The position numbers and the translations under genes are program-made. Below, one piece after another: positions 5,198 through 64,000 of a stretch of DNA of 64,000 nucleotides. How positions within the stretch are numbered: the stretch's first letter is position 1; each line of letters starts with the position of its first letter. Where the stretch lies: assembly GCA_025462885.1 (NCBI GenBank), contig JAOAPN010000006.1, forward strand, positions 248,001 through 312,000. The letters run 5' to 3'. The DNA is from Acidobacteriaceae bacterium (GTDB lineage: Bacteria > Acidobacteriota > Terriglobia > Terriglobales > Acidobacteriaceae). A model generated the notes under the pieces. That model ran no database searches. It was not told where the DNA came from and was given only the letters and a program-made list of their open reading frames with translations.

Positions 5198-6208
5198 CTA
5201 TTTCGTTGACATCTTGCGTCGTACAGCAGCGGCCAGCGACATCATGCCTGTTCCCATCAACATCAACGTCCCAGGTTCCGGGACAGGAGAGCCAGGATCG
5301 TAAGGCAGCGTACCGGTGAACTCCACGTTATGGACTTCGCCGGTCTGGCCGATCTGCGCTGCGATAAACGTTCCACCCATCTGCGAACCACCCGTCAGGA
5401 TTGCGAACGGGGCCAGGATCGACGCGTTGAACTGGGCGTTGATCGTGACCGTCTGGGCCGTGGAGAAGTTGAACAGGATGTTGGCGTTCGCCGCGCTGTC
5501 GCCTGAGGTCTGGTTGCCGTTGTAGTACAGGCCCGTTCCAAGGGTTACGTTCACTCCGTCGACGTTTACGATGATGGTCGAGCCAGCCGGAGCCTCGATG
5601 TCGATGTTGTGATTCGTGTCCGCGAACTGGGCTGCGGTGAGGTTGAAGATGTTCAACGTCGTGCTTGTGCCTTTCAGCACCAGCCATGACGGGTTGTGGC
5701 CGGGCTGGTTCGTCCCCAGGACGACACCGTTGGCGGTCTGTCCGGCGAGCAGCATGGTCTCAAGGTCCAGCGCTGTGCGGAGAGCGTTGAAGTCGATCCC
5801 CGAGCTGCCGCTTGCGACCCGGTGGCCGCCGTCGTTGAAGTTGATATTTCCGTTCGAACCCGGTGCAAAGGCATTTCCGCCGCCGTTCATATTGAAGCTC
5901 TGTCCGGCAACCAGGCCGTTGGTCGAAACCAGTCCGTAGGTGGCGAGCGAGCCGTAGGGGTCGTTGTTGAGGGAACTGCCGATCGTCGTTCCGTACAACA
6001 CCTTGTCGGCGGCGGCTACACGTCCGGTCACGTCGGCGTTTGTCCCGATGGTGCCTGCAATCACTGTCACTCCATGGGAGTCGACTGTTCCAAGAGCGAC
6101 CAGGTTATACGCGCTGGCGACGCCAAACGGGGCGAGAGAATCGGCATGCGCAGCCGCGGCGCCGGCGGCCATGGTGAGCACGAGCAGGGAAAGAGATTTT
6201 CTGAACAT
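5198..6208 (-). CDS. Choice-of-anchor A family (ice-binding-like) secreted protein with PEP-CTERM sorting signal
   Basis: Signal peptide MFRKSLSLLVLTMAAGAAAAHA; C-terminal VPEPGTLMLMGTGMMSLAAAVRRK (PEP motif + TM + basic tail). Confidence 0.88.
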   Translation of the reverse strand: MFRKSLSLLVLTMAAGAAAAHADSLAPFGVASAYNLVALGTVDSHGVTVIAGTIGTNADVTGRVAAADKVLYGTTIGSSLNNDPYGSLATYGLVSTNGLVAGQSFNMNGGGNAFAPGSNGNINFNDGGHRVASGSSGIDFNALRTALDLETMLLAGQTANGVVLGTNQPGHNPSWLVLKGTSTTLNIFNLTAAQFADTNHNIDIEAPAGSTIIVNVDGVNVTLGTGLYYNGNQTSGDSAANANILFNFSTAQTVTINAQFNASILAPFAILTGGSQMGGTFIAAQIGQTGEVHNVEFTGTLPYDPGSPVPEPGTLMLMGTGMMSLAAAVRRKMSTK

Positions 6209-6219
6209 ACCCCCCTACA

Positions 6220-6235
6220 AGCAATTGTCTCTCCA
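6220..6235 (-). promoter_or_regulatory. Candidate sigma-54 -24/-12 element upstream of PEP-CTERM gene
   Basis: Minus strand TGGAGAGACAATTGCT: GG-N10-GC spacing with TTGCT at -12; would give a near-leaderless mRNA. Confidence 0.3.
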
Positions 6236-48690: not shown

Positions 48691-49935
48691 CTATGCCCGT
48701 ATCGCGATTCGCTCCGGTACGGTCTCGCCGAAGCAGACGCGGTTGCGGCCGCTTCCCTTCGCCTCGTAGAGAGCTTTATCGGCTGCACCGATCAGGTCAT
48801 CCGGCAGATCGGTGTGGGTGGGCCAGCAGGTGGAGACACCGCAACTTACCGTCGCCCAAAGCGTTGGGAGCTGTGGAACCTCGTCCAGTGCCGGAGCGCC
48901 GGCGACCTCGACGAGCTTCCGGATCCGCTCGGCCACCATCATTGCGATCTCGGGCGATGTGTTTGGAAGCAGCACTACGAACTCTTCGCCGCCGAAACGC
49001 GCTGCGAAGTCTTCTTTTCCGCGCAGCGCCTGCTCCAGGAGTAGAGCAATTCGCTGCAGAACGCGATCGCCGTACAGATGGCCACAGAGGTCGTTCACGG
49101 ACTTGAAATTATCGATATCGATCAACACGGCCGAAAGAGGAGCCCGGGAGGTCAGGGCTCGCTTCCACATTTTCATGTACTGGTTGTCGAATGCGTGGCG
49201 GTTGGCCAGGCCGGTCAAAGAATCCATGCTGGAGATGCGTTGTAGTTCCTCGTTGCTGACTGAAAGCTTCGCACTCTGGATCTCCTCCCGCAGCCGCAGC
49301 AGATAGGCCAGCCGCTCCTCGCGGCCCAGGCTGTAGTTTGCCATGACCGTCATGGCGACCGCGCAGAGCGTCAGGGTGGCTCCGAAGACCTTCTCAGTAG
49401 TGCCTTGAAGCTTGTCGAAGTACAGGAAGGTCAGATCGCCCGCCATCATCGTAATCGACGCTGCGAGCGCGTATGGGAACTGCAGCCGCATCACCATGTT
49501 CGTGAACAGGACCGCTACGATCACGCCCACCTGGGCGTACGCGGGACCCATGGCATATGGTCCGGTTTCGAGGTAAAGGTGAATCAGGCAGATCCAGCAA
49601 GCCGCCAGGGCGATACTTGCCTCGCGGTACACGCGGCCCGGCCACGTGCGCATGCTGAAGTTTACACCAAGCGCTACGGGAGTGATCAGACCAGATCGAA
49701 CCAGCACATCATGCAGGGCCACCGTGTGCAGTAAGCAAAGATTTGCGAAGAGAAAGAGGTTGAAGAGGGCAATCGCCACCAAGCCCTCAATCCATAGCCT
49801 CGCCAGTCGTGCGGGCGCAACATCCTGCTCAAAACGTTCTTCCAGGCGCTCGGGGAAGGAGAGCCACTGAAACTTCCCTGCTGAGAGTCTTTCGATCTCT
49901 GGCGGGACGAGTTCGTAGATGGATGGAAGAGACAT
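48691..49935 (-). CDS. Diguanylate cyclase (GGDEF) with N-terminal six-TM sensor region
   Basis: RFGGEEFVVLLP; SMDSLTGLANRHAFD. Confidence 0.93.
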   Translation of the reverse strand: MSLPSIYELVPPEIERLSAGKFQWLSFPERLEERFEQDVAPARLARLWIEGLVAIALFNLFLFANLCLLHTVALHDVLVRSGLITPVALGVNFSMRTWPGRVYREASIALAACWICLIHLYLETGPYAMGPAYAQVGVIVAVLFTNMVMRLQFPYALAASITMMAGDLTFLYFDKLQGTTEKVFGATLTLCAVAMTVMANYSLGREERLAYLLRLREEIQSAKLSVSNEELQRISSMDSLTGLANRHAFDNQYMKMWKRALTSRAPLSAVLIDIDNFKSVNDLCGHLYGDRVLQRIALLLEQALRGKEDFAARFGGEEFVVLLPNTSPEIAMMVAERIRKLVEVAGAPALDEVPQLPTLWATVSCGVSTCWPTHTDLPDDLIGAADKALYEAKGSGRNRVCFGETVPERIAIRA

Positions 49936-50750: not shown

Positions 50751-52166
50751 CTACGCGCGGTTCTGCGGTGACAGATCGTACTGCTTGATCTTGTACAGCA
50801 GAGCCTTGTAGCTGATTTGAAGGTCGTTTGCTGCCGCTTTCCGATTCCATCCGACGCCTTCCAGAACCTGCGCAATTGCGGTCGATTCAGCCTCGCCCTT
50901 CAGATTTCGAACGAGAGCTTTGAGTCCGGCTCCGCCCTGCCCATCTGCACCGACTCCGGAGTGCGTCTCGACGCTCTCCGGTGGCGTCAGTTCGTCGAGG
51001 ATCGATTTTTCATCACCGAGTACCAGGTAGCGATTGACCACGTTCTCAAGTTCCCGAAGATTGCCGGGCCAGTGATGTCCAACCAGTGAATCGGTAAGGC
51101 TCTTCGAGAAGGGAAGTACGCTGCGTCCGTACTTCTTGGCGCCCTTGCGCATGAAGTATTCGGAGAGGACAGGAATCTCGTCCTTGCGCTCCCGCAGCGG
51201 CGGAATGCTCAAAGTGAAACCGTTCAGGCGATAGTAGAGGTCCTCGCGGAACGACTTGTTGGCCATCGCTTCCTTCATATTGATATTGGTCGCGGCGATC
51301 ACCCTTACGTCCACCTTCATGGGTGCGCGGCTGCCGAGGCGGGAGAAGGTCCCGTCCTGGAGGACCTGCAAGAGCTTTGCCTGCAGAATCGCCGGCATTT
51401 CTCCGATTTCATCCAGAAAGATCGTTCCACCGGTACAAATTTCAAACTTGCCCGGCTTGGTCTTGATCGCTCCAGTAAAAGCACCCTGTTCGTAGCCAAA
51501 CAGTTCGCTTTCCAGCAGATCCGCCGGAACTGCGGCGCAGTTGACCTTAAGGAAGATCTTCGAGCTGCGGGAAGACATTTTGTGCGTATAGAGAGCGAGG
51601 ATCTCTTTTCCCGTGCCGCTTTCCCCAAGAATCAAGAGAGGAATGTCTGCGCGTGCTACGAGAGCGGCCTGCGCCTCGAGATCGCGCATTCTCTTGCTGG
51701 ATCGGACGAACGAGTGGGTCTCGTTCAGCGGGATCTCCCGCATGGTGTCGGCTGTAGCCTTCTTGTCTTTATCGGTTGCCACGGTCGCGAGTTGCTCTTC
51801 GATCGCCTGCTCGACGTCGCTGCCGAGAAACGGCTTCATCACGATCGCACGCACACCGAGCCGGATGACCATCTCAAGGTCGCCGAGTTCGGCGGAGCAA
51901 GAGAGTACGATCACGGGAAGATTCGGCTTCGTGCAGCGAATATGCGTGAGCAGGGGCATCGGATCGCGGTGTGCGTGCAGTGCCAATAGCAGCAAATCCG
52001 GCTCGGCACCCTGCTCGAGTCGTTCCAGCAGGGTCTTCTCCTCAGAAAAGAGGCTGAGCGAGTAATGATCTCCAAGAGTTGAGCGCAGGTAATCGAGCAC
52101 TGCGAGATCCGGCTCCAGAATTAGGATCTGCGACCGGAATTTTGAATTCGACTTCAAAGCAGACAT
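50751..52166 (-). CDS. Sigma-54-dependent enhancer-binding protein with receiver-like (apparently degenerate) domain, AAA+ and Fis-type HTH
   Basis: GESGTGKE, ELFGYEQGAFTGA (sigma-54 contact), GGTIFLDEIGEM, C-terminal GVGWNRKAAANDLQISYKALLYKIKQY; start at 52166 or at the listed 52229. Confidence 0.92.
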   Translation of the reverse strand: MSALKSNSKFRSQILILEPDLAVLDYLRSTLGDHYSLSLFSEEKTLLERLEQGAEPDLLLLALHAHRDPMPLLTHIRCTKPNLPVIVLSCSAELGDLEMVIRLGVRAIVMKPFLGSDVEQAIEEQLATVATDKDKKATADTMREIPLNETHSFVRSSKRMRDLEAQAALVARADIPLLILGESGTGKEILALYTHKMSSRSSKIFLKVNCAAVPADLLESELFGYEQGAFTGAIKTKPGKFEICTGGTIFLDEIGEMPAILQAKLLQVLQDGTFSRLGSRAPMKVDVRVIAATNINMKEAMANKSFREDLYYRLNGFTLSIPPLRERKDEIPVLSEYFMRKGAKKYGRSVLPFSKSLTDSLVGHHWPGNLRELENVVNRYLVLGDEKSILDELTPPESVETHSGVGADGQGGAGLKALVRNLKGEAESTAIAQVLEGVGWNRKAAANDLQISYKALLYKIKQYDLSPQNRA

Positions 52167-52638
52167 TGGATAAGACAGCGATGCTGACATTCGTAAACCT
52201 CTCGATTCCGCCATTGCAGGACCAATCACCCGTTATTGGCGTTGCTCATCGACTCGTGGCGTACATCGAGTCCCGATACTAACCACTTCATACTGAAAAG
52301 AGCCCTGGAACGACGGCGAACTCAACACACGAGACCGGTTGGAAGGAACAGATCAGGACGAATCAAACTTCGGCAGAGATGTAGTACTAATTTTGCTGAC
52401 AAAAGAGAGAAAGGTTTTCTCTTTCTCTCCTCAAGTATTGCAAGCTTACATGCTAATAACTTGCTTCGTGAGAGAAAAAAGAGTTATTTTTAGTTGTGTG
52501 ACTTTGGTAACGTAGCGCATTATGACCGCCGGGATGATGATAAACAGAAGGTTACATCGTCCTTTTCCGCCCTGTTTTCCATTGGCTCAGTCATCATCGA
52601 AATAGATCCGTCCGGCAATGCAATCTTGCAATTGAGTG

Positions 52639-52654
52639 TGGCAGTTAACGTGCT
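52639..52654 (+). promoter_or_regulatory. Candidate sigma-54 -24/-12 promoter of the second activator gene
   Basis: TGGCAGTTAACGTGCT; GG-N10-GC spacing, 44 bp before ATG 52698. Confidence 0.45.
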
Positions 52655-52697
52655 TATCAATTCATGTTGCTGGACTGCCATACCTCGATAGGGAAAA

Positions 52698-53801
52698 ATG
52701 ACCTTGGTGCACAATAATGAGTCCGCTGCATTGCTCGATCTGCCGCCGCTCGACATTATTTTCGGAAAAACTCCTGCCATGCAGGCGGTCCGAAATAAGT
52801 TAGAGCGGGTAGCAGAGACTGACGTGCCCGTTTTAATACAGGGAGAGAGCGGAACGGGGAAAGAGATCTCCGTGCGTCTTCTTCATGCTTTTTCCATGCG
52901 GGCGCGCGGTTCACTTGTAAAGGTGAGCTGTCCGGCGATTCCAAACTCTCTTCTTGAGACTGAGCTGTTTGGGTATGAAAAAGGCGCCTTTACGGGCGCG
53001 ATGAACACCAAGCTTGGCCGCGTCGAACAGGCGCATAATGGCACACTCTTTCTGGACGAAGTAGGAAGCCTGGATCTTGCGGTTCAGTCGAAGCTGTTGC
53101 AAGTCCTTCAGGATGGGACGTTTGTGCGGGTTGGCGGACACGAGCCTCGCTCCATCGCGACACGTCTGGTATCGGCGTCTAATGGCGATCTTCGCAACCA
53201 GGTTGAAGATGGCACTTTTCGGCTCGATTTTCTCTTCCGCATTAATGCGGTGACGATCAATCTGCCCCCGCTTCGACAGAGAATTGTAGATCTGCCCGTC
53301 CTGATCGACTATTTCATTGAGCATTACGCCAGAGCCTTTCACAACACTCCGGAACTTCTTTCGAAGAGCGCCGTTCGGCTGATGCAGAACTATCATTGGC
53401 CCGGAAACATCCGCCAACTTGAAAATCTCATCCGCAGTTATGTCCTGATTGGAAGTGAAGAAGCTTTGGTTGCGGAGCTGATGCCGGAGTCGCCGCGCAA
53501 TGGCGGAATTACGACGGAGATCGATATCAGCGAACCTGTCTCGTTGAAGCGGATTACAAAGCAGGCTACGCAGGATCTCGAACGGCAGATCATCTTGAAG
53601 GTGCTTCAGGCGAATAGCTGGAATCGTCAGAAGACAGCGAAATGGCTGCAGATCAGCTATCGGTCCCTTCTGTACAAACTGAGCGAGGCCGGCATGCCGG
53701 AGGTTCCACCGCGTCCGATTCGCGTACCCCAACTTCTCAAGAAGAGCCCGGACGAGAGGGGTCTCAAGACTGCCCTTTTCGGGCGATCGAGAGTGTACTA
53801 A
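52698..53801 (+). CDS. Sigma-54-dependent enhancer-binding protein lacking a receiver domain (AAA+ + Fis-type HTH)
   Basis: GESGTGKE, ELFGYEKGAFTGA, NGTLFLDEVGSL, C-terminal NSWNRQKTAKWLQISYRSLLYKL. Confidence 0.92.
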   Translation: MTLVHNNESAALLDLPPLDIIFGKTPAMQAVRNKLERVAETDVPVLIQGESGTGKEISVRLLHAFSMRARGSLVKVSCPAIPNSLLETELFGYEKGAFTGAMNTKLGRVEQAHNGTLFLDEVGSLDLAVQSKLLQVLQDGTFVRVGGHEPRSIATRLVSASNGDLRNQVEDGTFRLDFLFRINAVTINLPPLRQRIVDLPVLIDYFIEHYARAFHNTPELLSKSAVRLMQNYHWPGNIRQLENLIRSYVLIGSEEALVAELMPESPRNGGITTEIDISEPVSLKRITKQATQDLERQIILKVLQANSWNRQKTAKWLQISYRSLLYKLSEAGMPEVPPRPIRVPQLLKKSPDERGLKTALFGRSRVY

Positions 53802-53953: not shown

Positions 53954-55333
53954 TTACTGTGCGCCCTGCCGTCGAATGATGGTCTTGACTGTCTCGAACA
54001 TGATGAGCAGATCGAGACCGAGCGCCATGTGTTTGATGTAGTACAGGTCAAATTCGAGCTTCTCGCGTGCTTCGGCCAGCGTGGCACCATATCCGTAACG
54101 GACCTGAGCCCATCCGGTAAGGCCAGGACGAATCATGTGCCGCAGTTCGAAGTACGGGATTTTCTCTACCAGCATCGGAACAAACTCCGGTCGCTCCGGT
54201 CGCGGGCCAACGAATCCCATGTCGCCGCACAGTACGTTCCAAAGTTGTGGAACTTCGTCGAGACGGGTCTTGCGCATGAACATTCCGATTCGGGTGACAC
54301 GCGGATCGTTCTTGGTAGCCCATTTCGCGCCTGCTGCTTCGGCGTCGGTTCTCATGGTGCGAAACTTATGCACTTTAAAATTGCGTCCGTTCATTCCGAC
54401 GCGGGTCTGGTGGAAGAAGATCGGTCCGGGGGACGAAATCCTCACCAGCAAGACTACAAACGGAAAGAATGGTGCAAAGAGCAGCAGTCCGAAGGCTGCC
54501 GTCAAAGTTGAAACCAGGCGGCGGGCGATTTGTTGCGACGGCTTGATCCGAAATCCTTCGCTGTAGATGAAGCTGCTGGGTCTCAGGCTATCCAGATAGA
54601 GCTTGCCGGTCAGTCTTTCGAGGAGAGTGGCGGCATCCTCAATCACGATCCCGTTGAAGCGTAGCTTCAAAAGCTGACGCATCGGGAGTTCGCCGCGGCG
54701 GTCTTCGAGCGCGATGATGACTCGATCGACGGGAGGCTTGGGTACCAGGAACGAAGCCAGCGCGGTTTCGAAAGTTTCCTTCCGCAGTTCCTTGTCGTTG
54801 GAGGCATCGTCGTCCCAGCCGACTACTTGCATGCCAGCGTCTTTGCGGGAGCGGAGCGTTTCGACGACGGTACGAGCGCGTTCGCCGGCTCCGAGAACAT
54901 AGACTCTCTCGCGAAACATATCCTGCCCGATGAGCCACTCGTATGCACTGCGCCACGCGACTAATGCGGCAGTCAGGAAAGCCAATCCGACCACCAGTAC
55001 GTATCGCGCGATGTCCGCGGCGGGGAAGAGGTAGGTGATCGCCGACAAAAGGAACGAGAGAAACCCGAGGACGAGCAGCAGTCGGAAATAAATCTCCCAA
55101 CGCGCGGAGATGCGCTGGGGTTCATACAGATCAAAGTAGTACGAGCAGAGCAGCGTGAGAACGGTAAGGCCAAGGATCTTTGCTGCCCCGTACTCGTAAT
55201 TCAGCACCAGGTACGTGTCGGGTCCCACAAGCAACACCGTTGCCAGAAGAAACGAACCACTTACAATCAGTGCCTCGCAGAGCAGTAAAACGATGGTGCG
55301 GGTTGGGTAGTACACATTGAACAGCCGTATCAT
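53954..55333 (-). CDS. Undecaprenyl-phosphate sugar transferase of exosortase/PEP-CTERM system (TIGR03013-like)
   Basis: N-terminal TM region, CoA-binding-like middle, bacterial sugar transferase domain (KVHKFRTMRTDAE...TRLDEVPQLWNVLCGDMGFVGPRPERPEFV). Confidence 0.9.
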   Translation of the reverse strand: MIRLFNVYYPTRTIVLLLCEALIVSGSFLLATVLLVGPDTYLVLNYEYGAAKILGLTVLTLLCSYYFDLYEPQRISARWEIYFRLLLVLGFLSFLLSAITYLFPAADIARYVLVVGLAFLTAALVAWRSAYEWLIGQDMFRERVYVLGAGERARTVVETLRSRKDAGMQVVGWDDDASNDKELRKETFETALASFLVPKPPVDRVIIALEDRRGELPMRQLLKLRFNGIVIEDAATLLERLTGKLYLDSLRPSSFIYSEGFRIKPSQQIARRLVSTLTAAFGLLLFAPFFPFVVLLVRISSPGPIFFHQTRVGMNGRNFKVHKFRTMRTDAEAAGAKWATKNDPRVTRIGMFMRKTRLDEVPQLWNVLCGDMGFVGPRPERPEFVPMLVEKIPYFELRHMIRPGLTGWAQVRYGYGATLAEAREKLEFDLYYIKHMALGLDLLIMFETVKTIIRRQGAQ

Positions 55334-55359
55334 CGGTTCGCTTGCTCCGTCTGGTTCTA

Positions 55360-56325
55360 CTATTCTTTGTCTGCGTCGTATCCGTAGTAGGTGCCGACTT
55401 GAGGTTGCGTTTCCACAGCATTGAGAACAAAACCGAGGATGTTAGAGGCTTTCAATTGAATCTGAGCTTTCTGTGCGACCTGGAACTTGGTAACCCCACC
55501 CCTGGCGACCAGCAGAACTCCATCGCAGGCGCGTGCCAGGTTGACCGCATCCGATACGGGAAGCACCGGCGACGAATCGATGATAATCCAGTCGAAATAC
55601 GGGGAAGCTGCCCGAATCAGCTCTCCAAATCTTGGATTGCCGGAGAGGTCTGCCGCTTTGTCTCCGCCGTTGCCTCCGGCGATGAAGGTGAGATTCGGCA
55701 GGATCGCGGAACGTACCCGATCGGCGGCACGGGGTTCCTCTGCGCGCTGCATGACCTCTACCATCTCGGCTTTGCCTGAAAGATAGTCGGCGAGTCCGGG
55801 ATGAGGCTGGCACCCGAGCAACTGATGCAGGGTGTAGCGGCGCATATCGCCGTCAATCAGGAGAACCTTGCTGTTCTTGTGCCGTGCAAGGCTGATTGCC
55901 AGGTTGGTCGCAACAAAACTCTTTCCTTCTTGAGGCAAGCCGCTGCTGATCAGGATGGATTTCAGGGGTTTGATGTCCCGCAGCTCGTAGATGCGAGAAC
56001 GCAGGCTGCGAAACTGTTCCACTGCAGGTCCACGCTCCAGAAGCGCCGGCAACTGGGAGTAAGTCGGCGTCCAGACATGCCTTGGAACATCGTTCAGACT
56101 GAGCGCCGGCGTAGCCGATCCCGATTCTGATCGGGAGGCGCGGCGCGGCTGCGGTGACGCGCTGTGGATGGCAGCGTCCGCCGGTAGAGCAGGTGCAACC
56201 TCATACTCTGGTGTTGTCTCCAGCGAAGGGCTAAACGGCTGATCTTCCGCCTGGGGCTCGCGGTCCAGCAGCCCTGCCTTTCGGTCCGACTCTGCTTTCT
56301 GCAGTGCTTCGTAGATACGGCTCAT
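55360..56325 (-). CDS. CpsD/CapB-family tyrosine-protein kinase (exosortase-locus type)
   Basis: SILISSGLPQEGKSFVATNLAISLA, VLLIDGDMRR, WIIIDSSPVLPVSDA; start MSRIYEALQKAE at 56325. Confidence 0.9.
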   Translation of the reverse strand: MSRIYEALQKAESDRKAGLLDREPQAEDQPFSPSLETTPEYEVAPALPADAAIHSASPQPRRASRSESGSATPALSLNDVPRHVWTPTYSQLPALLERGPAVEQFRSLRSRIYELRDIKPLKSILISSGLPQEGKSFVATNLAISLARHKNSKVLLIDGDMRRYTLHQLLGCQPHPGLADYLSGKAEMVEVMQRAEEPRAADRVRSAILPNLTFIAGGNGGDKAADLSGNPRFGELIRAASPYFDWIIIDSSPVLPVSDAVNLARACDGVLLVARGGVTKFQVAQKAQIQLKASNILGFVLNAVETQPQVGTYYGYDADKE

Positions 56326-57251
56326 CGATCCTGTCTCCCATTGGACTCGTCGTTGAACGACGTCATGAAGCCCGAAGATTCTCCTGGCGCATTGCGCGTA
56401 CCGTATCCACCGCCCATCGCTGCGGAAGAGATCAGGAACGGCTGTGACTCTAGCTCCAACTCTGCGGCTACGCCTTCGATCATCGGCACGGTCACTTGCT
56501 GCACCTGCTCCACGTAGGCGACGATCAGAGCGTGTTCGCACATCAGGTTGATGATGCGCGGAATGCCACGGCTATAGCGGTGGATCAACTCCAATGTCTC
56601 AGACGGGAAGATCTGCCAGGAAGCGCCGGCGATGCGAAGCCGCTCCGCCACGTAGGCGTGGGTCTGCACCTCGGTGAGGGACTGGGTCCGGCACCACAGG
56701 GAGACTCGCTGCCGCAACTGGCGGACGCTTGGATGGCGCAGCTTTTCTTCCAGCTCGGGTTGGCCGGAGAGGACGATCTGCAGAAGCTTCTCCGAAGACG
56801 TCTCAAGATTCGTTAGTAGACGAATCTCTTCCAAAAGCTCCCACGACAGGTTCTGCGCCTCGTCGACGACCACGACACAGGTCTCCTCCATGCGGAATCG
56901 CTCGATCAACCAACGGTTGAGTTGGAGAAGCATTCCAGACTTGGTTCGGGTCGCAGGTATCAGGCCAAAATCGGTGAGGACGAATTCGAGAAAGTCGAGT
57001 ACGTCAAGACGCGGATTGAAGACGAAGGCCGTCGAGACACGGCGTCCATTGAAGGAGCTCAGCGCGCGTCGCAGCAGGGTCGTCTTTCCGGTTCCAACCT
57101 CGCCGGTCAGCACTGTGAATCCCTTTCGTGCCGAAATCCCGTACTCCAGGCAAGCCAGCGCTTCGCGCGTATGCGGCATCATGTAGAGGAACCTGGGGTC
57201 GGGACTGGTCCCGAATGGGCTGCTCTGCAGTTTGAAGAAAGCCTTATACAT
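56322..57251 (-). CDS. ExeA-like AAA ATPase (XrtA/PEP-CTERM-associated type)
   Basis: FFKLQSSPFGTSPDPRFLYMMPHTREALACLEYGISARKGFTVLTGEVGTGKTTLLR. Confidence 0.9.
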   Translation of the reverse strand: MYKAFFKLQSSPFGTSPDPRFLYMMPHTREALACLEYGISARKGFTVLTGEVGTGKTTLLRRALSSFNGRRVSTAFVFNPRLDVLDFLEFVLTDFGLIPATRTKSGMLLQLNRWLIERFRMEETCVVVVDEAQNLSWELLEEIRLLTNLETSSEKLLQIVLSGQPELEEKLRHPSVRQLRQRVSLWCRTQSLTEVQTHAYVAERLRIAGASWQIFPSETLELIHRYSRGIPRIINLMCEHALIVAYVEQVQQVTVPMIEGVAAELELESQPFLISSAAMGGGYGTRNAPGESSGFMTSFNDESNGRQDR

Positions 57252-57253
57252 GG

Positions 57254-58807
57254 TTATCCACCCGCATTCATCAACGGCTTATTCGCCGTGGGTATCTCGT
57301 CTTTTCGTTTGCCAAATCTGCCGAAGCGTCCAAAGCGTCCGGTACGTTTCGACTCGCGCTGAATGACGTCCGGTGCGACAGAGATGACCGCCAGCGTTGG
57401 CAGCTTGGTGAAGGCCCAGATATCGCGCTCGGAACGCATCGCTGTGTCCATAAATTCGATCAATGCCACGATGAGCAGACCCAGCATCATGCCAGCGCCC
57501 AGTCCGCCGCCAACGAATACGCCGCGCTTCGGGAAGGAAGGGCCGTCCGGGAGATTTGGCGCGTCCATCAACTTGAACTGTTCGCCCTGTTGACGGCGTT
57601 CCAGATCCGTTGCCATCTTAGACTGATTCATCTTTCCAAGCAGATCGGTGTAGAAGGCCTGCGCGGTCTGATAGTCACGGGTGATCTGTTTGAACTCTTC
57701 CTGAACCGCAGGGCTCGACGAGACCCGTTCCTGATAGAGGCGCATCTGGTTCTGAATCTGCGCCTGATCGCGACGCTTCTGGGTGACCATCTGATCCATC
57801 CCGCGGATCTGTGCCCGAAGCTGAACGATGTTCATCGGCTCAGGACCCTTGGGAGCGGCGGATACCACGGTTGAAGCGGAAGAAGCCGGCTGCGGCTTTG
57901 CCATCACGGCACGCAGTTCTTTGATCTTGCGCCGTACCGTCACTACATCCGGATAATCATCTGTATAGCGAGTTCGAAGGTCGGCTTCCTGTGCCAGGAG
58001 ACCTTGTAGCTCTGTCTGCTGGGCCTGCGGCTGCACACGCTGCTGCTCGGGAGAAGAGGGCATCTCGCGCGTCTGCGCGGACAGCATGGACTCTGCATAT
58101 CCCTTGTCCAGCTCCATCCTACTCAGGGCCTGCGTCGCGGCGTCCAACTGGGTGCTGAGGGTGGTGAGCATGTTCATGTTCGTGCCCTCTTCCCCTGGTA
58201 GCTTGCCCGCGTAGGTTCGCTGGAAGTTGGCCATCTTTGCATCCTGCTCATCCAGACTGCGCTTCGCATCGGAGAGCTGCTGCTTCAGGAACTCCATGGT
58301 GCCTTCGGCAGACTGTTCGCGGGCGTGCAGGTTTTCGCTGATGAAGAGGGAAGTGATCTCACCACAGACCTGTTGCGCGGTCTGTGCATCGCGCGCCTGG
58401 AAGGAGATGAAGAAGCCGGGGAGACCACCCGTACGGGCGATCTGGGATTCAATCGGCTTGATGGCAATGTCCTTACGGACTTTATCGATACGGCCGTCCA
58501 TGCCCATGCCGGGGTACAGGTTGAAACGTTCAATGATGGGCTGCAAGCGCGAACGGCTAAGGATCTGCTCCTGCATCGATGCGAGGCGGGCGTTCAGGTC
58601 TTCGGAGACGACGGGCTTGACATAGTTGTCCGGTACCTTCTGCTGTTCGATCAGAACCAGTGTCTGCGAGGTGTAGACGGGAACGACAAAGAAGGTTGCG
58701 GTAAATCCCGCAATTGCAAAGATTGCGGCAGGGATCGCGACGATCCACCAGCGCTTCTTGAGGATATTCAGATAGTCTTCGGCAGCAAGCGTGCGGTGAC
58801 CAAGCAT
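57254..58807 (-). CDS. Wzz/GumC-type polysaccharide chain-length/co-polymerase protein
   Basis: DYLNILKKRWWIVAIPAAIFAIAGF N-terminal TM, long coiled coil, PNLPDGPSFPKRGVFVGGGLGAGMMLGLLIVALIEF C-terminal TM. Confidence 0.9.
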   Translation of the reverse strand: MLGHRTLAAEDYLNILKKRWWIVAIPAAIFAIAGFTATFFVVPVYTSQTLVLIEQQKVPDNYVKPVVSEDLNARLASMQEQILSRSRLQPIIERFNLYPGMGMDGRIDKVRKDIAIKPIESQIARTGGLPGFFISFQARDAQTAQQVCGEITSLFISENLHAREQSAEGTMEFLKQQLSDAKRSLDEQDAKMANFQRTYAGKLPGEEGTNMNMLTTLSTQLDAATQALSRMELDKGYAESMLSAQTREMPSSPEQQRVQPQAQQTELQGLLAQEADLRTRYTDDYPDVVTVRRKIKELRAVMAKPQPASSASTVVSAAPKGPEPMNIVQLRAQIRGMDQMVTQKRRDQAQIQNQMRLYQERVSSSPAVQEEFKQITRDYQTAQAFYTDLLGKMNQSKMATDLERRQQGEQFKLMDAPNLPDGPSFPKRGVFVGGGLGAGMMLGLLIVALIEFMDTAMRSERDIWAFTKLPTLAVISVAPDVIQRESKRTGRFGRFGRFGKRKDEIPTANKPLMNAGG

Positions 58808-58816
58808 AATTACTCC

Positions 58817-60148
58817 TTAGAACTGGTTCAATCGAGTGCGGCGGGGTGCAAACGTAACTCCAACGCCGATCGAATGAGTCAGTCCGTTATACGCATTAAG
58901 ACCCAGCAGTGAATTGGGAGTCGATTGTTGGATCGCGGTGTAGCTCATGTAAGCAGAGAATTTCTGTCCAAGCCGACGTGTAACCTGCGCACCACCATAG
59001 ACTGAGGTGAAGGTTCCTGGGAGCGCCAGACCGGTGGTGCGGGCATACGACATGCTGAGCGATCCGGACCAGTCCCGTCCCCAACCTCGTCCAACCTGAC
59101 CTGAAAGGGTGTCTGCAACGCTGCCGATCTGCAATCCAGAACCAGAGTTCACCCCGCGTGAGTAAATCACGGAGCTATTGAAGTGATGATGCATATAGAG
59201 CAGCGACGCACTCGCCGATAATCCAAGTCGCGACGGCACAAGCACCGGGGTCGTGATGCCACTTCCAGCGATTGGGAGTGAGAGGAAGGAATTCGTCCAC
59301 TGCGGGCCAGCCGAACCCTGGACGCTTAGTTCCTTGGTCAGCGTACGGCTATAGGTCAGATTCAGGCCGCGCGATTGGAACGAGGTCGAATTAATACCGT
59401 AGCTGTAGGCCGAGTATTGCGCGTTGAGTCCGATGCTGCTGCGTCGATCCAACTGGTGGTTTATCCCCACCTGTCCAGAGACCTGATCGCTGGAGAAGCC
59501 GACGCCATCTATGAAGCGCAGGATCCCATAGCTTCCGGTGCCGCTGATCGAGGTGCGGCCGGTCAACTGGCGCGAGATGTTTCCGCTTACTGAATTGTTG
59601 ATCTGGCGACCGTAGTTGCTGAGCACGGTCTGGTTGGGCGCGAGTGGATCCAGGATGGGTGATACTCCCAGATCGCCAACGCCAGGGATGCCGGAAATTC
59701 CGGTGGTACCGGTCTGCGGCAGGAACGAAAGCGTGTCGGAGACTCCCATCGCCCATCGACCCTTGATCAGGCCCTGCGAAGCGGACACGGATTGGAAGGT
59801 GGAAACTCCGCGCCCGGAGTAGTTCGAAAACAGAACTCCGCCGCTGTAGATCATGGAGAACGGATGGCTCGAACTGCTGTTTGTATATTGCATGTTGCCG
59901 GAAACGCTCGAGATCGAGGATGAACTGGTTCCGCCGCCTCCCGAATAGCTGTTGCCGAACTGGACGATCTCCGACCCTGTGAGGCTGTACTGGAAGTTGC
60001 CGTCCATAAGAGGAAGCATTGGACCCGGGCTATACACCGCTGGGCCAGCAGTTGCGGTGGGTGTAGCCTGTGCGAACGCACCGACGCTGCTGCCGAAGAG
60101 AAGAGCGAGAGCTGCCATGGATATCTTCATTGGTTTAGGAGATCTCAT
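58817..60148 (-). CDS. Outer-membrane beta-barrel protein of EPS locus
   Basis: Signal peptide and repeated aromatic amphipathic strands; position between Wzz and Wza genes as in exosortase EPS loci. Confidence 0.75.
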   Translation of the reverse strand: MRSPKPMKISMAALALLFGSSVGAFAQATPTATAGPAVYSPGPMLPLMDGNFQYSLTGSEIVQFGNSYSGGGGTSSSSISSVSGNMQYTNSSSSHPFSMIYSGGVLFSNYSGRGVSTFQSVSASQGLIKGRWAMGVSDTLSFLPQTGTTGISGIPGVGDLGVSPILDPLAPNQTVLSNYGRQINNSVSGNISRQLTGRTSISGTGSYGILRFIDGVGFSSDQVSGQVGINHQLDRRSSIGLNAQYSAYSYGINSTSFQSRGLNLTYSRTLTKELSVQGSAGPQWTNSFLSLPIAGSGITTPVLVPSRLGLSASASLLYMHHHFNSSVIYSRGVNSGSGLQIGSVADTLSGQVGRGWGRDWSGSLSMSYARTTGLALPGTFTSVYGGAQVTRRLGQKFSAYMSYTAIQQSTPNSLLGLNAYNGLTHSIGVGVTFAPRRTRLNQF

Positions 60149-60837
60149 GGGACCACGATCGTGTCGCCGGGCTGCAGCGTGACCAACTGTTTGCTGTCGC
60201 CTTTCAGCGCCTGCTTGTAATTAAAGGGAATCTTAATCTGCTTGCCCTGGGGTCCACGAAGTATATAGATACGCTTTGAATTCGCGAACGTGCTGAGACC
60301 GCCTGCCGCGGAGATTGCCTGCAAGGGGGTCATGCCGGGTGAAAGCATCAGTGGGCCGACCTTGCCGACCTCGCCGATCATGAAGATGCGCTGGCTGTTC
60401 ACCGCTGTAACGACTACGGAGACGCTCGGATCCTGGATGTATTTTTTGAGGCGGTTCGTAATATCGTTGCCCAACTGCATGGGCGTAATGCCTGCCGCCG
60501 GAATGTCCCCTGCGAGAACCAGGGAGATCATGCCATCCGGACGAACCGGGAAGGTGCCGGAGAGAGTGGGCTCCTTCCATACCGTGATCTGGAGGGAATC
60601 TTCAGCCCCGATGATGTAGCTGGAGCTGTCGATCATCGTGGTGCCCTTGGCCTGGGGTGCGGCCGGTCCAGCGGTGCCTGCTGTTGCCGGTGCGGGCGCA
60701 GGAGTTGCCGGGGCTGGGGCAGATTGCGCGTCCTGTGCGCTTCCGTAGGCTCCAAAGAACATCACAGAAGTCGCCAGGACGGAGGGAACGAGCATCGTGC
60801 GTAACCGTCTCATCGGGATAAGTCCTTTATTTTTCAT
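60145..60837 (-). CDS. Polysaccharide export (Wza-type, SLBB) protein
   Basis: YIIGAEDSLQITVWKEPTLSGTFPVRPDGMISLVLAGDIPAAGITPMQL; SLBB region. Confidence 0.92.
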   Translation of the reverse strand: MKNKGLIPMRRLRTMLVPSVLATSVMFFGAYGSAQDAQSAPAPATPAPAPATAGTAGPAAPQAKGTTMIDSSSYIIGAEDSLQITVWKEPTLSGTFPVRPDGMISLVLAGDIPAAGITPMQLGNDITNRLKKYIQDPSVSVVVTAVNSQRIFMIGEVGKVGPLMLSPGMTPLQAISAAGGLSTFANSKRIYILRGPQGKQIKIPFNYKQALKGDSKQLVTLQPGDTIVVP

Positions 60838-61003
60838 TCTTGATCCAACTATCCTAATTCTTGCGGAATTTGTTTAGCAGCTTACGCCGCTGTAGCCTGC
60901 CCAGGCACCGGTACGTACGCGGAGAGTTGCTCTCTGGGGCAAGTGAATCTGCGTCTCATACTCTATCTAAGACATGGTGGCCTGAGATATCCATTATCCT
61001 TCA

Positions 61004-61019
61004 AGCACTACGAGTGCCA
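61004..61019 (-). promoter_or_regulatory. Candidate sigma-54 -24/-12 promoter of the EPS operon
   Basis: Minus strand TGGCACTCGTAGTGCT vs TGGCACG-N4-TTGCW, 10 of 12 defined positions. Confidence 0.6.
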
Positions 61020-61144
61020 AAGTCTCGAAATTGGGAGTCGGCGTTGAAATTATTTACTTGAAAGTGCAAGGATTGGGCAGTTTGTAGTCAACCGAGTGGC
61101 CGCTTGGCGTCCTGGACGATTTGCTTCTCGCAATTGCGGAATGA

Positions 61145-61159
61145 ACTGTAACTTACAGT
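61145..61159. promoter_or_regulatory. Candidate shared upstream activator site
   Basis: Perfect 7-1-7 palindrome ACTGTAA-C-TTACAGT, roughly 156-159 bp from each predicted divergent +1. Confidence 0.5.
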
Positions 61160-61177
61160 GTGCAGATTACCAGCACG

Positions 61178-61197
61178 AAGGGAAAACATTTTCCCTT
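61178..61197. promoter_or_regulatory. Second perfect palindrome in the divergent region
   Basis: AAGGGAAAA-CA-TTTTCCCTT. Confidence 0.5.
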
Positions 61198-61281
61198 TTA
61201 ATCGTTTTCAACCTACCACTTTGGTAGACCTCAGGCTGGTTTGTGGTTGAATTAGACTCCTATCTACACAGACTTGAATTG

Positions 61282-61297
61282 CGGCATTCAAATTGCA
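61282..61297 (+). promoter_or_regulatory. Candidate sigma-54 -24/-12 promoter of exosortase gene
   Basis: CGGCATTCAAATTGCA; 9 of 12 defined positions. Confidence 0.45.
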
Positions 61298-61310
61298 TAC
61301 ATGGTGACTC

Positions 61311-62279
61311 GTGAAGTATATCGTCCCAACCACCGACGTTGGCAGTGAACAGGCTGAGCCACCTTTATCGGATGCAATCACCCCGACATACGCGGAAAGC
61401 CCAATCGACTCGTCCAGAAGCACTTCGAACCCTTCCGGGATGCATCGGGACTGGTGGCCCTATGCACTGATCGCCTTCCTGCTGGTGGCTATCTACTTCC
61501 GCGTCGCGGGCAAACTAGTCTTCGACTGGTACGATCTTCCCGACTACTCGCATGGCTTTCTCGTCCCGTTTTTCGCCCTGTTCGTGCTTTGGGATAACAG
61601 GGCGGTTCTCCGCAGCGTCCCGGTCCGCGCAACGTGGAGTGGAATTCCCCTGGTTCTTGCGGGTATTGCGGTCGTCATTCTTGGCGTGTATGGCGCCGAC
61701 CTTTTTCTCTCTCGCATCTCCTTTCTTATCCTGCTCTGCGGCATCATATGGACGTTCTTCGGCAGGGGCATGCTGTACGCGGTGCGTTTTCCGATCTTTA
61801 TCCTTCTCCTCGCGATTCCTTTCCCGGCCATTGTTTTCAACCAGATAACTTTCCCGCTCCAGCTCTTTGCTTCGCAACTGGCAAGCTTTATCCTGCCGTT
61901 TCTGGGGGTTCCGGTGCTCCACGAGGGCAACGTCATCGAGTTGCCAGTCATGAAGCTGGAGGTAGCCGAGGCCTGTAGTGGCATTCGCTCGCTGATGAGC
62001 CTGTTCACCCTGGCTGTTTTTTATGGCTACTTCCTGGAGCGCACCACCACGCGGCGCGTCATTTTAGCGATAGCGAGCATTCCTATTGCGGTCGCGGCCA
62101 ACGCTGCACGTATCGTCGGAACTGGCCTCTGTGTTCAGTACTGGGATCCGGAGAAGGCTCTGGGCTTCTTCCATGAATTCTCCGGTTGGGTTATGTTTGT
62201 CATCTCGCTGGTCTGTCTTTATCTGTTGCACCGTCTTATGCGTCTCGTGGCACCCCCCGCGCGGGAGAAGGCTTTATGA
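61311..62279 (+). CDS. Exosortase (PEP-CTERM sorting transpeptidase)
   Basis: DLPDYSHGFLVPFFALFVLWDNR; catalytic EACSGIRSL Cys, AANAARI Arg, FFHEFSGW His. Alternative start ATG 61440. Confidence 0.93.
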   Translation: MKYIVPTTDVGSEQAEPPLSDAITPTYAESPIDSSRSTSNPSGMHRDWWPYALIAFLLVAIYFRVAGKLVFDWYDLPDYSHGFLVPFFALFVLWDNRAVLRSVPVRATWSGIPLVLAGIAVVILGVYGADLFLSRISFLILLCGIIWTFFGRGMLYAVRFPIFILLLAIPFPAIVFNQITFPLQLFASQLASFILPFLGVPVLHEGNVIELPVMKLEVAEACSGIRSLMSLFTLAVFYGYFLERTTTRRVILAIASIPIAVAANAARIVGTGLCVQYWDPEKALGFFHEFSGWVMFVISLVCLYLLHRLMRLVAPPAREKAL

Positions 62280-62962
62280 AATCCCCTCGTTTCTGGACAG
62301 TCGCCCTCCTGCTGCTCGCCACTGCCATCATGCTGCATAGCCGTGGGGACGTCGATCGCGTTCCAACCAGCCAGCCTCTCAGTTCCATGCCGCAGACCAT
62401 CGGTCCCTGGAACTCACGCGATATTCCCATGCAGGACGACGTCCTCGCGATCCTGGGAAAGGGCGATTTTCTGAATCGTATCTATTTGGGTCCTCGCGAC
62501 GTCTCGGGTTCGAATCTGCAGCCTGTTTCGACGGCGAGTGCCCCTTTAGTGCCGATCAGCCTTTTCATCGGATACTTCGCATCCCAACGCAGCGGCCAGT
62601 CGATCCACTCACCTCAAAATTGTCTTCCCGGTGCTGGCTGGACTTTCGAATCTTCCCGCTACACGGACCTGACGGCTGACAACGGAAAGGTCTTCCGGGT
62701 AGGCGAGTACGTGATCAGCGACGGAACGACCCGGCAGTTCGTTCTTTACTGGTACCAGGCTCATGGACGGAGCATCGCCAACGAGTACGCCGCCAAATGG
62801 TACATGATTACGGACGCCATCCGCTTGAATCGCACCGACGGCGCTATCGTCAGGGTGATCACGCCCATTCAACCTCGGGAAGACGTCGCGACCGCACGCG
62901 ACCGGGTCGTCCGGTTCACCGGCATGATGGCGCCATCGCTTCCCAGGTTTATCCCGGACTAG
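62276..62962 (+). CDS. EpsI family protein (exosortase-associated)
   Basis: ATGA overlap with exosortase stop; IGPWNSRDIPM..., FIGYFASQRSGQSIHSPQNCLPGAGW. Confidence 0.92.
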   Translation: MKSPRFWTVALLLLATAIMLHSRGDVDRVPTSQPLSSMPQTIGPWNSRDIPMQDDVLAILGKGDFLNRIYLGPRDVSGSNLQPVSTASAPLVPISLFIGYFASQRSGQSIHSPQNCLPGAGWTFESSRYTDLTADNGKVFRVGEYVISDGTTRQFVLYWYQAHGRSIANEYAAKWYMITDAIRLNRTDGAIVRVITPIQPREDVATARDRVVRFTGMMAPSLPRFIPD

Positions 62963-63003
62963 AACGACAAACACAGGGAACGACCGCCCTGCACAGAATC
63001 GGA

Positions 63004-63019
63004 CGGCACATGCAACGCT
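63004..63019 (+). promoter_or_regulatory. Candidate sigma-54 -24/-12 promoter of TPR lipoprotein gene
   Basis: CGGCACATGCAACGCT; GG-N10-GC spacing, 53 bp before ATG 63072. Confidence 0.35.
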
Positions 63020-63071
63020 GTACTCGCAATCGAACGCGCCTCATTGAAGAAGGGCTAAAGGATAATCCGTT

Positions 63072-64000
63072 ATGAAAACACCCACGATTTCGACAGCATT
63101 TCGCATTATGGCCACGCTGTCTGTCTCACTTGTCCTCGGTTCTTCCGTTGGCTGCCACCGCGATCCGAACGTGCAAAAGCAGAAGTATCTCGAGAGCGGC
63201 AAGCGCTATGCCAAGGACGCCAAGTATAAAGAAGCGACGATCCAGTTCTCGAACGCGTTGAAGGTCGACCATAATTTTGCGGAAGCCCACTATGAGCTCG
63301 CAAAAGCGTACATGAAGACGAATTCGATGATGCAGGCTTATGCCGAACTCACGCGGACCGTCGATCTGCAGCCCACGAATGCGACCGCTCGCATTGACCT
63401 GGGCAACCTGCTGCTTGCCGGCGGCCAGCAACAGCGTGCCACGGATCAAGCCAATGCTGTGCTGGCCCTGCAAAGCAATAACGCCGACGCACACGCACTG
63501 CTCTCCGGCGTCGCGGCCATGAAGAACGATCGCGCTACGGCACTGACAGAGATTCAGAAGGCCCTCACTCTCGATCCGGGCAAGGCTTCGTACCATGCCG
63601 CCCTCGGTCTAATTCAGAGCAGCGATCCGAACTCCGGAGGCGCGGCGGAGGAGCAACTTCGTAAGGCGGTTGAGCTTGATTCCAAGAATGCGACGGCACA
63701 CCTCGTACTTGCCGCTCTGCTGGAGCGTAAGGGCGATCAGGCCGGTGCTGCGGAACAGCTCAATTCGGCCATCGCCCAGGACCCGAAGAACGTTCAGGCT
63801 CGCGGTGGACTGGCTGGTCTTCTGATGCGCCAGAACAATAACGCCAAGGCCGAGGAGGTATTGAAGAAGGCAGCTGACGATCTTCCCGATAGCCCCGAGG
63901 CCGTCCAGATGCTGCGGGCCTTCTATGCCCAGACCAACCAGATAGATCATGCCGAACCGGCTTATGCCGATCTCGTGGCGCGGCATCCGAAGAGCACACA
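63072..64000 (+). CDS. TPR-repeat lipoprotein of exosortase/PEP-CTERM system (PrsT-like), 3' truncated by window edge
   Basis: Translated by eye: MKTPTISTAFRIMATLSVSLVLGSSVGCHRDPNVQKQKYLESGKRYAKDAKYKEATIQFSNALKVD...; lipobox SVGC and repeated TPRs; absent from the ORF track because no stop is reached. Confidence 0.85.
   Translation, partial: MKTPTISTAFRIMATLSVSLVLGSSVGCHRDPNVQKQKYLESGKRYAKDAKYKEATIQFSNALKVDHNFAEAHYELAKAYMKTNSMMQAYAELTRTVDLQPTNATARIDLGNLLLAGGQQQRATDQANAVLALQSNNADAHALLSGVAAMKNDRATALTEIQKALTLDPGKASYHAALGLIQSSDPNSGGAAEEQLRKAVELDSKNATAHLVLAALLERKGDQAGAAEQLNSAIAQDPKNVQARGGLAGLLMRQNNNAKAEEVLKKAADDLPDSPEAVQMLRAFYAQTNQIDHAEPAYADLVARHPKST

Follow-up and report, generated by a model that had tools for sequence, protein, structure and literature searches.

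The 64,000-nucleotide stretch of DNA analyzed here (the window) belongs to a 5.26-Mb genome whose kin are the soil acidobacteria Edaphobacter and Granulicella (Acidobacteriaceae). Within it, a Wza-type gene heads a leftward exopolysaccharide (EPS) operon and an exosortase gene opens a rightward one (Table 1), a divergent arrangement that recurs in all 30 genomes compared (this one and 29 relatives of the same genus). The Wza-type product scores 141 bits against the XrtA/PEP-CTERM export model TIGR03027, under the cut-off of 180, and a search of NCBIfam with the second gene of the EPS operon (58817-60148, minus strand; 443 aa) matched no model. An Rfam search of the locus likewise returned no match over threshold. 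The original prediction from this DNA had also placed two sigma-54 activators 8-10 kb away, and both are there. Genes A and B are divergent, and each product combines an AAA+ domain containing GAFTGA with a Walker A motif and a Fis-type HTH, the set of features that defines a bEBP. In activator B, the acceptor position reads PDLLLLALHAH by eye and the Response_reg score falls under the Pfam cut-off; because the acceptor aspartate of a canonical response regulator is missing, ordinary phosphorylation of this protein is unlikely. A diguanylate cyclase gene (48691-49935) lies beside the activator genes, and we treat it simply as a neighbor.

Table 1. Genes and sequence elements of the locus (window coordinates; a dot marks features given no strand).
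Feature	Position	Strand	Remarks
Wza-type polysaccharide export gene (wza)	60145..60837	-	First gene of EPS operon; Poly_export 85 bits
Remaining EPS operon	53954..60148	-	443-aa ORF, XrtA-type chain-length determinant, XrtA-associated ATPase, tyrosine autokinase, EpsB_2 sugar transferase
Exosortase (xrt), 8TM EpsH family	61311..62279	+	Exosortase_EpsH 248 bits; TIGR02602 above cut-off
EpsI-type (DUF3485) protein, then PrsT-like TPR protein	62186..63998	+	Downstream of exosortase
Activator A, sigma-54 AAA+ activator	52698..53801	+	Regulatory domain absent; GAFTGA; Pfam, sequence
Activator B, sigma-54 AAA+ activator	50751..52229	-	Receiver domain lacking acceptor aspartate (PDLLLLA); GAFTGA; Pfam, sequence
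wza/EPS operon sigma-54 -24/-12 element TGGCACTCGTAGTGCT	61004..61019	-	Predicted transcription start 60993
Exosortase operon sigma-54 -24/-12 element CGGCATTCAAATTGCA	61282..61297	+	Predicted transcription start 61308
Palindrome ACTGTAACTTACAGT	61145..61159	.	Perfect 7-1-7; present, not conserved
Conserved dyad GGGAAAACATTTTCCC (61180-61195), as AGGGAAAACATTTTCCCT	61179..61196	.	Best candidate shared activator (enhancer) site
Half-site block TGTGCAGATTACCAGCA	61159..61175	.	Adjoins dyad; possible second, weaker activator site
Second motif-like site GTTGAAATTATTTACTTG	61043..61060	.	Near wza promoter; score 8.36, 8th in window
Conserved block CTACCACTTTGGTAG	61213..61227	.	From alignment
Sigma-54 element TGGCAGTTAACGTGCT before activator A	52639..52654	+	TGGN6ACGTGCW, position kept in most of 21 genomes
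Sigma-54-like element TGGAGAGACAATTGCT	6220..6235	-	Precedes the window's PEP-CTERM gene (5198-6208, -); weak

The core of the original prediction was that the intergenic region carries two outward-facing sigma-54 promoters, one for EPS export and one for the exosortase operon, with a palindrome between them as a shared enhancer. All three sequences (TGGCACTCGTAGTGCT, CGGCATTCAAATTGCA and ACTGTAACTTACAGT) occur where they had been placed, the GG-N10-GC spacing is exact, and the distance arithmetic is right, the palindrome center (61152) standing 159 and 156 bp from the two predicted starts. Both elements present the TGGCAC/TTGC-like context around GG-N10-GC that marks sigma-54 promoters, and the genome encodes a single rpoN (one Sigma54_DBD match, 198 bits, C10:250270-250743). 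In one genome such boxes are barely above chance, since near-matches to the consensus are about as common in shuffled DNA: TGGCAYRN5TGC with at most one mismatch occurs at 18 sites in 64 kb, against 14.8 expected, and by a weighted sigma-54 score over the whole window, with thresholds here and for the motif below of our own choosing, the wza element ranks second and the xrt element eighth.

Comparison with relatives supplies a stronger argument. In a 23-genome clade (support 100/100), the xrt box is kept in 20 genomes, all but L010, L030 and L031, and 22 or 23 genomes keep the wza box; in the seven genomes outside the clade, the xrt box appears in none and a wza-like box in one. Eight fresh close loci, obtained through a separate search at 64% or higher exosortase identity, served as an out-of-sample set, in which the xrt box is present in six, the wza box in seven and both in five. 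Alignment of relatives' intergenic regions, proposed with the original prediction as a check, retains the GG/GC boxes and does not retain the palindrome. In this 20-genome alignment, conserved blocks stand at the two ends (TTTGGCA...GC at wza, GGC-N8-ATTGCWTACA at the exosortase), the intervening DNA is largely scrambled, and background columns approach saturation, the commonest base having a median frequency of 0.55. Because these 20 genomes were chosen by box pattern, their complete GG/GC identity arises by construction, and the fair conservation figures are 20/23 and 22/23. As the boxes persist in surroundings that have for the most part diverged, we take them as more than chance; judged from sequence conservation across a clade that keeps both activator genes, the two -24/-12 elements are very probably real promoters.

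An alternative is that a sigma-70 promoter drives the exosortase operon and that the xrt GG-N10-GC box is incidental. TTGCWT-N17-TATAAC can indeed be read downstream of the xrt box in several genomes, and TGCGATAAT precedes the exosortase in six of the seven non-clade genomes. However, TATAAC lacks the final T and gives way to CGCAAC, CACAAC or TTCAAC in clade members, whereas the GG at -24 stays, and TGCGATAAT is found in none of the 23 clade genomes; we consider this account quite unlikely. For wza, a sigma-70 promoter reading TTGGCA-N16-GATAAT was rejected on failing to recur in relatives read by eye, and the wza leader folds no better than its shuffles. The extended -10-like character of TGCGATAAT in six genomes (L032-L036, L038) may reflect a switch of promoter class from one lineage to another.

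With sigma-54 as the preferred assignment for both promoters, the start of the exosortase transcript deserves comment. The original prediction had warned that this mRNA might be near-leaderless, a caveat that proves real: the predicted start falls just before GTG 61311, and across most of the clade the spacing between xrt box and this GTG is almost constant, which puts the predicted start 2-3 bases before the codon. In the window genome, translation could begin at GTG 61311 or at ATG 61440, with no alternative start ahead of the latter; many other genomes offer an ATG or GTG 7-9 codons further in. Evolution of the exosortase gene is far faster over codons 1-43 than over the remainder. In four genomes (L013, L018, L025, L229), the frame from the GTG is closed and the DNA GTGnnGTATAACG is still kept. 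For this segment (61311-61325), which follows the predicted start, an initial transcribed region, a leader peptide and an operator are all options.

The enhancer portion of the original prediction fared differently. The palindrome at 61145-61159 is a perfect 7-1-7 repeat lying almost midway between the predicted starts; however, it is private to this genome, being absent from all 29 relatives searched, and it is one of nine such perfect palindromes in 64 kb. On this absence we rejected it as an enhancer, a role for which we now leave it the faintest of chances. Conserved in its stead is an adjoining dyad (61179-61196), present in 20 clade genomes and centered 94.5 bp from the xrt -24 element and 168.5 bp from that of wza. 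Next to it, the half-site block retains TGCA and CAG in most of the 20 genomes (pattern TGTGCAG..CAG; half site TGTGCA at 61159-61164). Further along from the dyad stands a conserved CTACCACTTT, and ACTTTGGTA is conserved both in the block at 61213-61227 and between the activator genes. The exact form GGGAAAN3TTTTCCC occurs at three sites in the genome, namely the dyad and two others beside ribosomal-protein-like or other unrelated ORFs.

A likely meaning of the dyad emerges from genes elsewhere. This genome encodes 14 PEP-CTERM genes, many with a sigma-54 box 30-145 bp ahead of the start. Across six genomes with both activators, boxes scoring 9.5 or more precede 31 of 67 PEP-CTERM genes in the sense orientation, versus 3 of 67 in antisense (p 8e-9). 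Motif discovery by expectation-maximisation with a palindromic model, run blind on the sequences preceding 32 such boxes, with wza/xrt DNA left out of the training set, returned tgTGCAAaattTTGCAca, a TGCAA-N4-TTGCA type site, with a log-likelihood of 128 versus 33-37 in five shuffles. This motif was recovered in three held-out cross-validation folds, and its confident sites lie 29-144 bp before the -24 element. It superseded a first model built from the xrt/wza dyads only, which was too narrow for PEP-CTERM promoters. Sites of at least 10 bits accompany 22 of the 31 box-positive and 16 of the 36 box-negative PEP-CTERM genes. In a relative with neither activator (G020), a box precedes only 1 of 13 PEP-CTERM genes and the motif none (0/13). 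In G009 and G021, which stand outside the clade and encode diverged activators, PEP-CTERM motifs are present and the divergent box pair is absent; boxes also occur in one genome without the pair (G004; 63% complete). A composite motif-gap-box pattern gave 62 matches in the genus versus 14 for a reversed control over 61 genomes, a result that we do not count as proof because many matches look coding. As boxes and motif precede PEP-CTERM genes and are nearly absent from the relative that lacks the locus activators, we read this set as a regulon, which on sequence evidence comprises the sorting machinery, EPS export, the sorted substrates and one activator gene.

In a scan of the window, the PEP-CTERM motif has its top intergenic site at the dyad (61179; 8.45 bits, seventh in 64 kb), followed by the site at 61043. 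The window's own dyad would be unconvincing by itself, because the peak score stays under 8.8 bits in 95% of shuffled upstream sequences; it is the conservation that convinces, since among the other clade genomes that have both boxes nearly all score 8.4-13.5 at the same position. Since the score here is only 8.45 bits, with GGGAAA instead of TGCAA, the dyad may serve a second activator or another factor. We also weighed an intrinsic terminator or RNA hairpin, as a pattern scanner classed 61177-61198 as terminator-like. The dyad, however, stands between divergent promoters with no gene there to terminate, the T-run is missing in some relatives, shuffles yield 0.6 such sites in the same scan, and the sigma-54 promoters of PEP-CTERM genes are preceded by a related motif, all of which makes a terminator very improbable.

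Accepting the dyad as a candidate activator site leaves the question of which promoters it serves. The single activator dimer site first envisaged is too simple, as a motif-like site lies near wza (61043-61060) and a conserved half site flanks the dyad. Both boxes might thus be sigma-54 promoters with separate activator sites, the dyad acting mainly on the exosortase and wza using 61043-61060. Stronger sites occupy a similar place near wza in L012, L022, L023 and L024, and the 168 bp between dyad and wza box exceeds the 29-144 bp of confident PEP-CTERM sites. Spacing points the same way: the distances between dyad and xrt box form clusters at about 80, 91 and 101 bp (14 lineages, p ~0.02 without correction for our own choices), which is compatible with helix phasing, and no phasing is seen towards the wza box, which lies 168 bp from the dyad in this genome and 124-181 bp from it in relatives. 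Yet the central dyad is conserved and the wza-proximal site is not present in all genomes, so that we hold separate sites to be possible but somewhat doubtful.

As to the protein that would bind the dyad, the 23 clade genomes carry orthologs of A and B with 76-95% identity, for the most part in the vicinity of the wza/xrt pair. Outside the clade, versions at 61-68% identity are found in G009, G021 and G034, and none above the general paralog level in G004, G008, G017 or G020. This distribution fits A and/or B as the most likely regulator, although the genome encodes several further sigma-54 activators. Because activators and boxes alike follow one clade, the distribution does not separate A from B, and the association does not amount to many independent events. 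The conserved sigma-54 promoter of activator A itself suggests feedback. In the region between the activator genes (52230-52697), the conserved blocks GACAAAAGAGAnAAAGGTTTTCCC and ACTTTGGTA resemble blocks of the wza/xrt region.

Taken together, these observations make it likely that the intergenic region is a divergent sigma-54 control region in which the conserved dyad serves as a shared site for one or both locus activators, within a wider PEP-CTERM regulon. Sigma-54 RNA polymerase would occupy the two outward boxes, transcribing the wza/EPS-export operon leftward and the exosortase operon rightward. An activator, most likely A and/or B, would bind the dyad and open both promoters by DNA looping, while activator A, through its own sigma-54 promoter, could feed back. 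Given the same motif and boxes before many PEP-CTERM genes, export, sorting and the sorted proteins may be switched on together. The co-ordinate switch first proposed thus stands with respect to its two conserved sigma-54 promoters, loses its palindrome enhancer, and gains a scope wider than one intergenic region. A more detailed version, rather unlikely to hold in every part, would place the clade's whole PEP-CTERM/exosortase/EPS programme under a kinase-free activator pair, one sensorless and one with a receiver not phosphorylated in the usual way, acting jointly on a TGCAA-N4-TTGCA type site; it would include feedback on A, an exosortase mRNA starting 2-3 bases before a conserved GTG, and an exchange, in one direction or the other, of sigma-54 for sigma-70 promoters at the exosortase between lineages.

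Regulation of this general kind is already known, and the present case differs in its motif, activators and phylum and in including the sorting enzyme and EPS export. In Proteobacteria only, a sigma-54 box and an activator motif were described before PEP-CTERM genes and matched to PrsR, PrsK and PrsT (Haft et al., 2006; PMC1569441). The locus resembles that system in its -24/-12 boxes with an upstream motif at PEP-CTERM genes, in NtrC-type activators near EPS and exosortase genes, and in a PrsT-like TPR gene. Of four marks of the PrsK/PrsR system, however, the sigma-54 box is found here and the other three are not. The best genome match to PrsR (TIGR02915, cut-off 502.6) reaches 408.8 bits and the locus activators 300.8 and 272.6; the best match to the PrsK histidine kinase (TIGR02916, cut-off 300) reaches 92 bits in the genome, with none in the window; and the proteobacterial motif, compared through the text describing its logo, ends 3' in TTTACA (PMC1569441), as opposed to TGCAA-N4-TTGCA here. 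Moreover, unlike in the PrsK/PrsR system, the exosortase and EPS export operons themselves bear boxes.

Other precedents share single aspects. The RpoN1-dependent pepA of Aquincola tertiaricarbonis has a mapped start behind a TGGCAC/CTGCTT box in an EPS/flocculation setting (PMC9850573); it is of the PrsK/PrsR type, a single substrate gene that was tested experimentally, with no divergent exosortase/EPS switch described. Desulfovibrio vulgaris offers known cases of divergent sigma-54 operons served by a common activator site, for example type III secretion genes/DVUA0100 (PMC4641369); these differ from the present case in function, activator and phylum. In the same species, DVUA0057 is an NtrC-type activator of PEP-CTERM and EPS genes (PMC3333781, PMC4641369), a plasmid-encoded response regulator whose targets come from a DAP-chip binding assay. 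That sigma-54 governs the cell exterior is a general theme (PMC3162934). Among the open-access papers searched, none brings Acidobacteria, exosortase and PEP-CTERM together, and sigma-54 control of PEP-CTERM genes has hitherto been described as proteobacterial and run by PrsK/PrsR. If the present reading is true, sigma-54 has been linked to sorting into exopolysaccharide more than once, or an older link has changed its regulator; either way, a defined regulon with testable sites would be available for a soil group with a poorly known surface biology. More distant Acidobacteria (L246-L248, L252, L255, L260, L263) also have a sequence close to the dyad, AGGGAAAGTATTTGCCCA, 220-380 bp ahead of the exosortase.
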